From Acholeplasma sp. (GTDB lineage: Bacteria > Bacillota_I > Bacilli_A > Acholeplasmatales > Acholeplasmataceae): a stretch of 32,235 nucleotides of DNA. The stretch lies in assembly GCA_012838065.1 (NCBI GenBank), contig DUPY01000020.1, positions 1 to 32,235 on the forward strand, given 5' to 3'. Positions 16,614-19,349 of the stretch are shown in pieces (positions within the stretch are counted from its first letter, which is position 1; every line of letters begins with the position of its first letter). The translations under genes and the position numbers were made by a program. The notes beneath the pieces were generated by a model, which worked only from the letters and a program-made list of their open reading frames with translations, searched no databases and was not told the origin of the DNA.

Positions 16614-16637
16614 GAAAAAAAGCACCCAAAGGTGCTT
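16614..16637 (-). terminator. Terminator of the M42 peptidase gene
   Basis: AAGCACC and GGTGCTT (16620-16626, 16631-16637) pair around a four-base loop, with a T run on the minus-strand side. It overlaps the last codons and the stop of the peptidase gene, and the next promoter's -35 begins in its tail. Confidence 0.85.
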
Positions 16638-17688
16638 AATCAAATAATATTTTTTCAACTGTTTCTTTATTTAACTTTTCAATGACTAAAGTCATTAGTT
16701 TTACGGTATTTTCAAAGTCATCACGATGGATGATAGATGTGTGTGAATGCATGTAACGCGTTGGTATACAAATTGATAAGCTTGCCGCACCATGATGTGC
16801 TAAGTGGAAGTGACCGGCATCGGTTCTACCACCTTTTATAAAGCCTTCTTGATATGGAATCTTGTTTTCTTTTGCAACTTCAATAACGAAGTTTCTTAAT
16901 GTTTTATGACCAATTAAACCACCATCAAATAATAAAATTTGTGGCCCTTTACCAAGAGATTGTTCATTTGATATGCCACCGGGTACATCATTACCTAATC
17001 CTGTATCTATAGCAAAGGCAATATCAGGTGCTGCAATGTATGATGCTGTTTTAGCACCACGTAAGCCAACTTCCTCTTGAACAGTAAATGCACCAAATAC
17101 TTGATTTGGATTGTTTTTTAAGTTTTTTAAAACTTCAACAACTACTGCACTACCAATTCGATTATCCCATGCTTTACCAAGTAAGTATTTACCATTACCT
17201 AGTACTTTGAATTCGCTGTTTGGCGTAATCATGTCACCTGGCATAACACCTAATTCTAAAGCTTCTTCTTTACTGTCTACTCCAATATCTAAGTACATTT
17301 GTTCAATGTCAATGGCTTTCTTACGATCTTCAAGTGGAATAATATGTGGCGGTTTAGAACCAGTGACTCCATAAACAATACCTTTTTTCGTTGTAATTTT
17401 CCAAACTTGAGCTAGCATTACTTGCGAGAACCAGCCACCAATTGGTTGGAACTTAACAAAACCTTCTTTTGTAATCTCAGTTACCATTAAACCAACTTCG
17501 TCCATATGGCCACCAATCATAATTCTTGGACCTGTCTCACCTTTAATAGCGATAAGTGAACCTAAATGATCGTGCTCAATAAAATCCGCGTATGGCTTCA
17601 CTTCGCTTTCTATATACTTAGAAACTTGAACTTCTTGGCCTGGTATACCGTCTAATTCCGTTAGTTTTTTCAAAAAATCATTTTTCAT
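16636..17688 (-). CDS. M42-family glutamyl/leucyl-type aminopeptidase
   Basis: 350 residues, close to the family norm. M42 peptidases are cytosolic dinuclear-metal aminopeptidases that assemble as tetrahedral dodecamers. All expected ligands are visible: His61 and Asp63 in GGHMDEVG, bridging Asp174 in AWDNRIG, Glu204-Glu205 in TVQEEVG (general base and ligand), Asp227 in AIDTG, and His313 in YMHSHTS. The GGRTDAGHFHLAHHGAAS segment is also typical. N-terminal specificity cannot be assigned from sequence. AGAAGG lies at proper distance from the ATG. It is immediately preceded by a structured RNA gene that ends in a terminator, so expression may depend on read-through. Confidence 0.9.
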   Translation of the reverse strand: MKNDFLKKLTELDGIPGQEVQVSKYIESEVKPYADFIEHDHLGSLIAIKGETGPRIMIGGHMDEVGLMVTEITKEGFVKFQPIGGWFSQVMLAQVWKITTKKGIVYGVTGSKPPHIIPLEDRKKAIDIEQMYLDIGVDSKEEALELGVMPGDMITPNSEFKVLGNGKYLLGKAWDNRIGSAVVVEVLKNLKNNPNQVFGAFTVQEEVGLRGAKTASYIAAPDIAFAIDTGLGNDVPGGISNEQSLGKGPQILLFDGGLIGHKTLRNFVIEVAKENKIPYQEGFIKGGRTDAGHFHLAHHGAASLSICIPTRYMHSHTSIIHRDDFENTVKLMTLVIEKLNKETVEKILFD

Positions 17689-17706
17689 GTTGTACCTTCT
17701 TTCATT

Positions 17707-17855
17707 AAAAAAAGCCTAGAAAGCGTATGAAGAACGAATGATTTAAAGTGGGTATTACCTTTTCTATAGTTCGGGATTCCATTGCTGGCATTCAACACCC
17801 CTATAGTTTTAACACCCATTCTAATGATTTGGGTTCCATAGCTTACTTTCTAGGT
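17707..17855 (-). ncRNA. Structured RNA with its own promoter and terminator, 6S RNA-like
   Basis: About 149 nucleotides. Pairing in order: CCTAGAAAG with CTTTCTAGG (17846-17854 and 17715-17723), then TATG/CATA plus GAA/TTC, then a large nearly symmetric open region of about 15 by 14 bases, then TGGGTGTT with AATACCCA (17811-17818 and 17749-17756), then CTATAG-GGG with CCC-(GAA)-CTATAG, and an apical loop. Both sides of the open region carry the same octamer AAATCATT, which cannot pair with itself. The outer stem is followed by seven T residues. A rod with one central bubble is the hallmark of 6S RNA, which mimics an open promoter and binds sigma-A RNA polymerase. No primary sequence match can be checked. 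Alternative: an untyped leader attenuator for the M42 gene. Confidence 0.55.
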
Positions 17856-17861
17856 ATCTAC

Positions 17862-17890
17862 ATTTTATCACTTGGAACATATCTTGTCAA
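17862..17890 (-). promoter_or_regulatory. Near-consensus promoter of the 6S-like RNA
   Basis: TTGACA (17885-17890), exactly 17 bases, TAAAAT (17862-17867) on the minus strand. The predicted start is about 17855, one base before the outer stem of the RNA. It is among the strongest promoters in the window and begins right after the stop codon of the membrane-protein gene. Confidence 0.82.
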
Positions 17891-17891
17891 A

Positions 17892-19349
17892 TCAATAGTA
17901 TAGATTTATCCTTACGTAATGACCATTGTAAATAAGTAAATCTAACAAAAATTCTTGAATTTTTGTTTCTATTATATAAGAAGTATTTGGAACTTGTAAA
18001 TCGACTTGAACCGTCATGTGGCCATCATAACTTATTTTTCGCAAATACTTATAGTTATACTTCAACGAAAATGCATGTAGGTCTTCATTTGTATTAAAGT
18101 AGACGACAAAACTTATAATAACTTTACTTCGTATTTCTAATTCATCTAAAATATCTGCTAAATATAGCGCTCGTGCTATTATATAATTCGGTTGATGGAA
18201 AAAATTCTTTTCATAAAGTGTTTTGTATTTGTCTTCACGAATAACCATTTGGATTTGGTCATTAAATTGTGCTTCTAGAAAATCCAAAAATTTATGAACT
18301 TTTAATTCATCCTCATTATGAAACTCACAGTACAATTTAATAAATTTTTTATCATACGTATAGGCTGTAATGAAAAATTTTTTAGCATTGGCATAAATCA
18401 AAACCTGCTGTAATTTTTTTTGAAATTGAGTCAACGCAATTGCAATTTGATAAACCACAGATATTTGATAATTTTCGTTATAAACAAACGGTTCAAAAAG
18501 CGCATTTGCGAAGACTTCTCTTTGTTTATCTTGATCATAATAATGATAATGTTCAAAAATGACGCGAGCGCGTAATTTTATGAATTCATAAACGCCAGTA
18601 GCTATCCCTAATATCAAAGCAACGCCACTTAAAATATATTTCGTTGAATCAACAGGAATATAGATTAGAAACACATATATAATTGGTGGATAAATTAGTA
18701 TAACAAGTATTCTAAACAGCGATGTAAAGCCCTTTTTATATAGTACAAGGATACTTGTTACAATAACAAACAATCCATAGAGCGATGAGAAAAAAGAGCT
18801 TAACTTAAAGTTTTCAAAAGTGATTGCCATTTCTCCTAATTGATTGATCAAAACAAAGACGCCAATAGCTGTTAAAATAAGTATTATCACTTGTCTTAAT
18901 TTATAATACGGTTTCTTTGTATATAGTTTTCTTGTTTGCGGTAAATGATAGTAATTTTTCATTTCCTTTCGATAGGCCATATAAGGTGCTCTACTGCCAT
19001 ATAAATCGACATTTATCGGCACTATTTCTTCATCTGAAATACGTTTACTTAAGTAGTTTTCAAATTCAGCAAGTGGATTTAAAACGAATAATAAAGACGC
19101 AAGTAACGTAATAGCAATTTGATATTGTGGAAGTACGATTAAAAGCATTGCACAAATAATGCCATAGATACTATAGATGATAAGTTTCGCAAGACCACCA
19201 AAGGAGTAAATCAATACATAAACGAGTACTGTTAATACAATTCCTGCAAAAAAAGTTCTATCTTTTGGCTCTTTAAAAATAAAACTACTTGGTAGTAAGA
19301 TAATGATTGTAATTAATGAAACTAAAAATATGTTAACTCTTCTTTTCAT
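17892..19349 (-). CDS. Membrane protein of unknown function
   Basis: 485 residues, not recognised. Hydrophobic helices lie at about 8-24, 33-55, 56-75 and 77-92. A polar stretch containing VDLYGSRAPYMAYRKEMKNYY follows, then a second cluster of about four helices (roughly 150-260). The remaining C-terminal 225 residues are soluble, rich in Tyr, Phe and charged residues, and look like a mixed alpha/beta domain (VIISFVVYFNTNEDLHAFSLKYNYKYL; GHMTVQVDLQV). No catalytic motif is apparent. GAGGTTAAG precedes the ATG. It has its own promoter and ends with TGA three bases before the -35 of the 6S-like RNA. It could be a membrane-anchored sensor or envelope protein, but nothing proves this. Confidence 0.8.
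   Translation of the reverse strand: MKRRVNIFLVSLITIIILLPSSFIFKEPKDRTFFAGIVLTVLVYVLIYSFGGLAKLIIYSIYGIICAMLLIVLPQYQIAITLLASLLFVLNPLAEFENYLSKRISDEEIVPINVDLYGSRAPYMAYRKEMKNYYHLPQTRKLYTKKPYYKLRQVIILILTAIGVFVLINQLGEMAITFENFKLSSFFSSLYGLFVIVTSILVLYKKGFTSLFRILVILIYPPIIYVFLIYIPVDSTKYILSGVALILGIATGVYEFIKLRARVIFEHYHYYDQDKQREVFANALFEPFVYNENYQISVVYQIAIALTQFQKKLQQVLIYANAKKFFITAYTYDKKFIKLYCEFHNEDELKVHKFLDFLEAQFNDQIQMVIREDKYKTLYEKNFFHQPNYIIARALYLADILDELEIRSKVIISFVVYFNTNEDLHAFSLKYNYKYLRKISYDGHMTVQVDLQVPNTSYIIETKIQEFLLDLLIYNGHYVRINLYY

Follow-up and report, generated by a model that had tools for sequence, protein, structure and literature searches.

A very probable single-copy 6S RNA gene of an Acholeplasmatales bacterium, scoring below the cut-off of the standard Rfam model

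In other bacteria 6S RNA occupies and restrains RNA polymerase, and the pRNA templates of B. subtilis and E. coli 6S RNAs span the end of helix P2 and the start of the central bubble. The working described for the class combines mimicry of an open promoter, sequestration of the sigma-A holoenzyme and release by a pRNA made from the 5′ bubble strand (PMC8876501; PMC12005410). In lactic acid bacteria 6S RNA almost always has rarA as its upstream neighbour (PMC8414754), and the Ms1 RNA of Actinobacteria has been described as structurally related to 6S RNA (PMC9130861). For Acholeplasma, Mollicutes, Tenericutes or phytoplasma, a literature search found no description of a gene for 6S RNA; Wehner et al. 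(2014), the main survey, lay outside this search and may report one. We analysed a 32,235-nt stretch of DNA from Acholeplasma sp. (the window), one locus of which very probably is the single-copy 6S RNA (ssrS-type) gene of this Acholeplasmatales bacterium.

We searched 61 genomes at the nucleotide level, that of the window and those of 60 relatives, and the element turned up in 26, its own genome counted; these homologues belong to the Acholeplasmatales, and carriers of the RNA include A. laidlawii (homologue at L063 2492-2647), A. granularum and A. equifetale. The first-pass annotation had advised a search with the Rfam 6S model, and RF00013 indeed returned a full-length match in the right place and on the right strand (17709-17859, minus), but at 19.4 bits and E=0.058 this lies well under the gathering score of 46.4 bits, which is a database threshold and not a biological property. 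RF00013 was nonetheless the sole family of 4227 with E<=10 at the locus. Across the window there was no gathering-level match to any Rfam family, known riboswitches included, and across the genome RF00013 gave no match at E<=0.001. RF00013 also matched the RNA at the same gene in one relative (21.8 bits) and in A. laidlawii (18.6 bits) and gave no match at E<=10 in another homologue (L010). When 19 homologue loci were scanned against Rfam at E<=0.1 nothing was returned, because RF00013 scores such loci near 20 bits or less.

Because the window RNA falls under the RF00013 gathering score, homology was tested in both directions. We built a covariance model, R1, from 26 Acholeplasmatales sequences only, and ran R1 and RF00013 each over 296 genomes of the class. 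R1 recognised the window RNA (17706-17856, minus) and matched 43 genomes outside the order; in 25 of these the match coincided with an RF00013 match on the same strand, and none was discordant. In the opposite direction, a model built from 32 RF00013-called 6S RNAs of other orders only (R2), picked from the RF00013 list and not by R1, placed its best match in the window at 17709-17859 (minus) with 51.2 bits and E=1.2e-7, the next having E=3.2; genome-wide the window RNA again ranked first (E=4.5e-6, next 0.97), all R1 and R2 E-values being only roughly calibrated. Of the 25 other homologues R2 also recovered 22, each at its known position. The apical GGUGUUGAAUGCC...GGAAUCCCGAA is common to other Bacilli 6S RNAs, as is the motif GUGUUGAAUGCC..GGAAUCC with ACCCAC. 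By these reciprocal tests the window RNA is homologous to recognised 6S RNAs, and the sequence has diverged so far that the standard Rfam model misses the order's version. In the remaining 18 of the 43 genomes outside the order (G236, G239, G254, G257, G393, G245, G345, G289 and ten more), R1 matched with E from 5e-6 to 5e-3 where RF00013 found none; these are likely further unrecognised 6S RNAs.

The first-pass annotation had described a near-consensus promoter ahead of a nine-pair outer stem that doubles as a terminator, and within it a rod with a central open region and a paired apical arm. Every one of these elements was found where it had been placed, and the strand, on which that annotation was silent, is minus. 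The promoter (TTGACA-17-TGaTAAAAT) agrees with consensus at 11 of 12 positions, and the predicted transcript would start at about A17855. The outer stem pairs CCUAGAAAG (17854-17846) with CUUUCUAGG (17723-17715), nine pairs that one U.G pair extends to the 10 of P1, and is followed by C and seven U (17713-17707); the bubble measured 15 × 14 nt and the apical arm is paired. Folding of the minus strand gives -40.8 kcal/mol (z = -3.55), a value equalled by none of 200 shuffles. We rejected a plus-strand reading, for which the fold is poorer (z -2.4) and R1 gives only 22-25 bits on the reverse strand of six loci, low scores that are expected of a palindromic rod. Feature coordinates are collected in Table 1. 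A second promoter-like site on the minus strand (17971-18000; TTTACA-18-TATAAT, 11/12), ~110 nt upstream and within the 3′ end of the upstream gene, could yield a longer 6S precursor or could be a chance match.

Table 1. Predicted features of the 6S RNA locus and its flanking genes
Feature	Position	Strand	Evidence
6S RNA gene (very probable), predicted transcript ~147-149 nt	17707..17855	-	R1, R2 and sub-threshold RF00013 matches
Predicted sigma-A promoter: TTGACA 17890-17885, 17-nt spacer, extended -10 TG-a-TAAAAT, hexamer 17867-17862	17862..17890	-	sequence; homologues
P1 5′ strand, closing stem, CCUAGAAAGU	17845..17854	-	fold, covariation
P2 5′ strand AUG-GAAC; likely pRNA template with the CCCAAA next to it	17833..17839	-	alignments
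5′ strand of central bubble, CCAAAUCAUUAGAAU, 15 nt	17818..17832	-	sequence, fold, alignment
P3 5′ strand GGGUGUU, upper boundary of bubble	17811..17817	-	covariation
Apical arm: P4 CUAUAG/CUAUAG and conserved GGUGUUGAAUGCC...GGAAUCCCGAA	17764..17806	-	alignments, R2 match
P3 3′ strand AAUACCC	17750..17756	-	covariation
3′ strand of central bubble, ACUUUAAAUCAUUC, 14 nt	17736..17749	-	sequence, fold
P2 3′ strand GUUC-uu-CAU	17727..17735	-	alignment
P1 3′ strand GCUUUCUAGG and U-tract, predicted intrinsic terminator	17707..17724	-	sequence, fold, covariation
M42 glutamyl aminopeptidase family gene, downstream	16636..17688	-	Pfam PF05343, E=9e-103
Membrane protein gene, no Pfam family, upstream; conserved beside RNA	17894..19349	-	stop 17896-17894

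These elements are conserved as a unit. In the alignment of the 26 homologues GAACCCAA is invariant, GGUGU(U)GAAUGCC...GGAAUCCC is nearly so, the closing stem is conserved as well, and the most conserved part of the RNA is the AUG-GAAC of P2 with the adjoining CCCAAA. A promoter one to three mismatches off consensus precedes each of the 26 at about the same distance, and a T-rich tract, weak in L021, follows the closing stem. On this evidence from sequence, conserved promoter and terminator bracket a predicted rod-shaped RNA of ~147 nt, which would form an independent transcription unit. The octamer AAATCATT does occur on both sides of the bubble (17830-17823 and 17744-17737), as the first-pass annotation had noticed; the part proposed for it, to keep the bubble open, does not extend to the family, where the longest word common to both bubble strands is 4-7 nt in 25 homologues. 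A functional role for the repeat was ruled out, since it is not conserved in homologues, and it is unique to the window species and incidental.

Compensating changes at homologous loci, for which the first-pass annotation had proposed to look, proved abundant in both arms. In a model-guided alignment of the 26 homologues (A4; MAFFT by itself misaligns P2 in a few sequences), 94.9% of cells pair and 22 of the 38 pairs show double changes, P2 for example occurring as GUG/CAC, AUG/CAU and GUA/UAC; covariation scores 0.368, where shuffles give 0.163 and none of 500 reaches the observed value. A second set, A5, comprised 39 further loci, mostly from other genera or families and nearly all outside model building (L080 is the same place as L024). 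Here 31 of the 38 pairs show double changes, in 224 cells against 68 in shuffles (0/500), counts that lean towards the structure in that A5 was aligned with the model; sliding by 1-3 columns lowers the score to 0.06-0.13. Compensating changes touch five of the six helices in A4, where P5 is nearly invariant, and all six in A5. Covariation thus supports a central bubble between a closing stem and an apical arm, the arrangement of the 6S class, and together with the reciprocal models it upholds the original assignment of 6S topology.

The window RNA shares with RF00013 members such as E. coli SsrS and B. subtilis 6S-1 (BsrA) the closing stem, P2, open central bubble and apical arm, a promoter of its own, a closing stem that serves as terminator, homologous positions by reciprocal models and, with the Bacilli members, the apical GUGU(U)GAAUGCC..GGAAUCC and ACCCAC. 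It differs in its low RF00013 score (19.4 against 46.4 bits), in its own 5′ bubble and P2 sequence (GGAACCCAAA), and in a length of ~147 nt, below the ~160-nt comparison RNA and near or under the lower size limit reported for the class.

Within the order 104 of 160 genomes, from 25 of 28 genera, have the RNA according to R1, in one copy each except in G056, whose two matches (C5:47-195 and C15:48348-48496, one at a contig start) represent two 6S genes or else a duplication in the assembly. Absence here means that R1 recognises nothing. Genus g8 (29 genomes: G007, G020, G030, G084-G109) has no R1 match at E<0.1, laxer filters included, the best being E=0.15. The SVM signal family PF12113 occurs in seven of eight g8 genomes tested, and g8 is therefore read as Phytoplasma; the phytoplasmas thus appear to have lost 6S RNA with genome reduction.

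The gene neighbourhood bears on whether the RNA acts on its own or in cis. The usual order in Acholeplasmataceae is membrane protein, (GalU), RNA, (small membrane protein), M42, with the M42 gene next or next-but-one in most loci. The upstream membrane protein of ~485 aa, without a Pfam family, stands beside the 6S gene or GalU across Acholeplasmataceae. Farther upstream, the product of a ribosomal protein L20 gene (19455-20150, minus) has 231 aa and a C-terminal extension, which makes it roughly double the length of the family profile (107 positions). The 6S RNAs of lactic acid bacteria (PMC8414754) share the structural plan. The gene rarA (Pfam MgsA_C, E=9e-49) lies ~1.2 kb upstream of the R1 match in one outlying relative from another family of the order (L066), and it also lies near two RF00013 loci (L120 and L122); in Acholeplasmataceae, by contrast, the neighbours are the membrane protein, GalU and the M42 peptidase, and neither rarA nor uspA was seen beside the window gene. 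Only 18 nt separate the U-tract from the M42 start codon of the window (17688), too few for another promoter, so that M42 would be expressed by read-through from the RNA or from upstream. One might see in the family a distinct, short Acholeplasmatales 6S subtype that also serves as the 5′ leader of M42 mRNA where no promoter intervenes, that is, in lineages of the window type. We regard this dual role as unlikely; if it holds, read-through would produce a 6S-mRNA fusion and peptidase expression would be tied to the state of the polymerase.

A still less probable reading makes the RNA a cis-acting leader or attenuator of M42, in which a ligand or protein controls the terminator stem and read-through expresses the peptidase. 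The tight spacing in the window and the frequent proximity of M42 in Acholeplasmataceae speak for it. The location upstream of an M42 peptidase, which had been taken to define homologous loci, is true of the window but only one of several contexts: in family f5 GalU lies upstream of the RNA and several loci have no M42 nearby, in family f3 none of the tested neighbours lies within ~1-1.5 kb, and another gene separates RNA and M42 in seven of the 26 homologues. A TATAAT stands just past the terminator in 11 of 26. Structure and motifs, moreover, match 6S RNA, and the terminator, far from being a separate switch, is formed by the stem that closes the entire RNA. Since the RNA is kept while its neighbours change, and a TATAAT can follow its terminator, we take it for an independent gene; a leader of the M42 peptidase as main role was rejected, its association with M42 not being conserved in f3 and f5.

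The RNA might instead be another polymerase-associated RNA that merely resembles 6S, for example one of the Ms1 type, which binds core polymerase without sigma. The form of polymerase bound is not readable from sequence, and Ms1 is, per the literature, a polymerase-associated structured RNA of related shape (PMC9130861). It is, however, likened here by description, it is described as an actinobacterial class and so belongs to another phylum, and the window family is reciprocally recognised by Bacilli 6S models; we consider this reading very improbable. A chance fold, with a strong promoter and a terminator around an unstructured spacer, could draw on the commonness of promoter-like sites in AT-rich DNA, their count across the region being no higher than chance, but is already refuted by covariation beyond all 500 shuffles, along with the z of -3.55 and the conservation of sequence and pairing in 104 of the order's 160 genomes.

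If the 6S RNA of the window works like those of E. coli and B. subtilis, from whose biology we infer polymerase binding and pRNA synthesis, the bubble between its two arms would mimic an open promoter, and under nucleotide shortage sigma-A holoenzyme bound to it would be kept away from promoters on DNA. Among the genome's products are an RpoD-type sigma (419 aa) and two smaller sigma-like proteins. On the return of nucleotides, polymerase would copy the 5′ strands of bubble and P2 (GGAACCCAAA) into a short pRNA, probably containing GGGUUCC, and this synthesis would open P2 and release the RNA. GGAACCCAAA, the most conserved segment, reaches from the end of P2 into the beginning of the bubble and is compatible with a candidate pRNA template. 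The P2 3′ strand (GUUC), once freed, may in most relatives then pair with GAAC of the 3′ bubble, as in the release hairpin of E. coli: with the P2 5′ strand blocked in silico, this 3′-bubble hairpin (GUUC/GAAC) formed in 20 of 26 homologues and a bubble-collapse helix in three. For the window RNA the predicted minimum-energy fold under the same blockage contained neither. Its 3′ bubble has no GAAC, and its release rearrangement therefore probably differs.

The locus supplies a 6S gene for an order whose sampled genomes hold none that Rfam calls above its cut-off, and its family extends to the cultured A. laidlawii; R1 also yields 6S candidates in 18 genomes of other orders without an RF00013 match. 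The single copy in most Acholeplasmatales genera, set against none detected in 29 phytoplasma genomes, makes the dispensability of 6S RNA testable in a reduced lineage.
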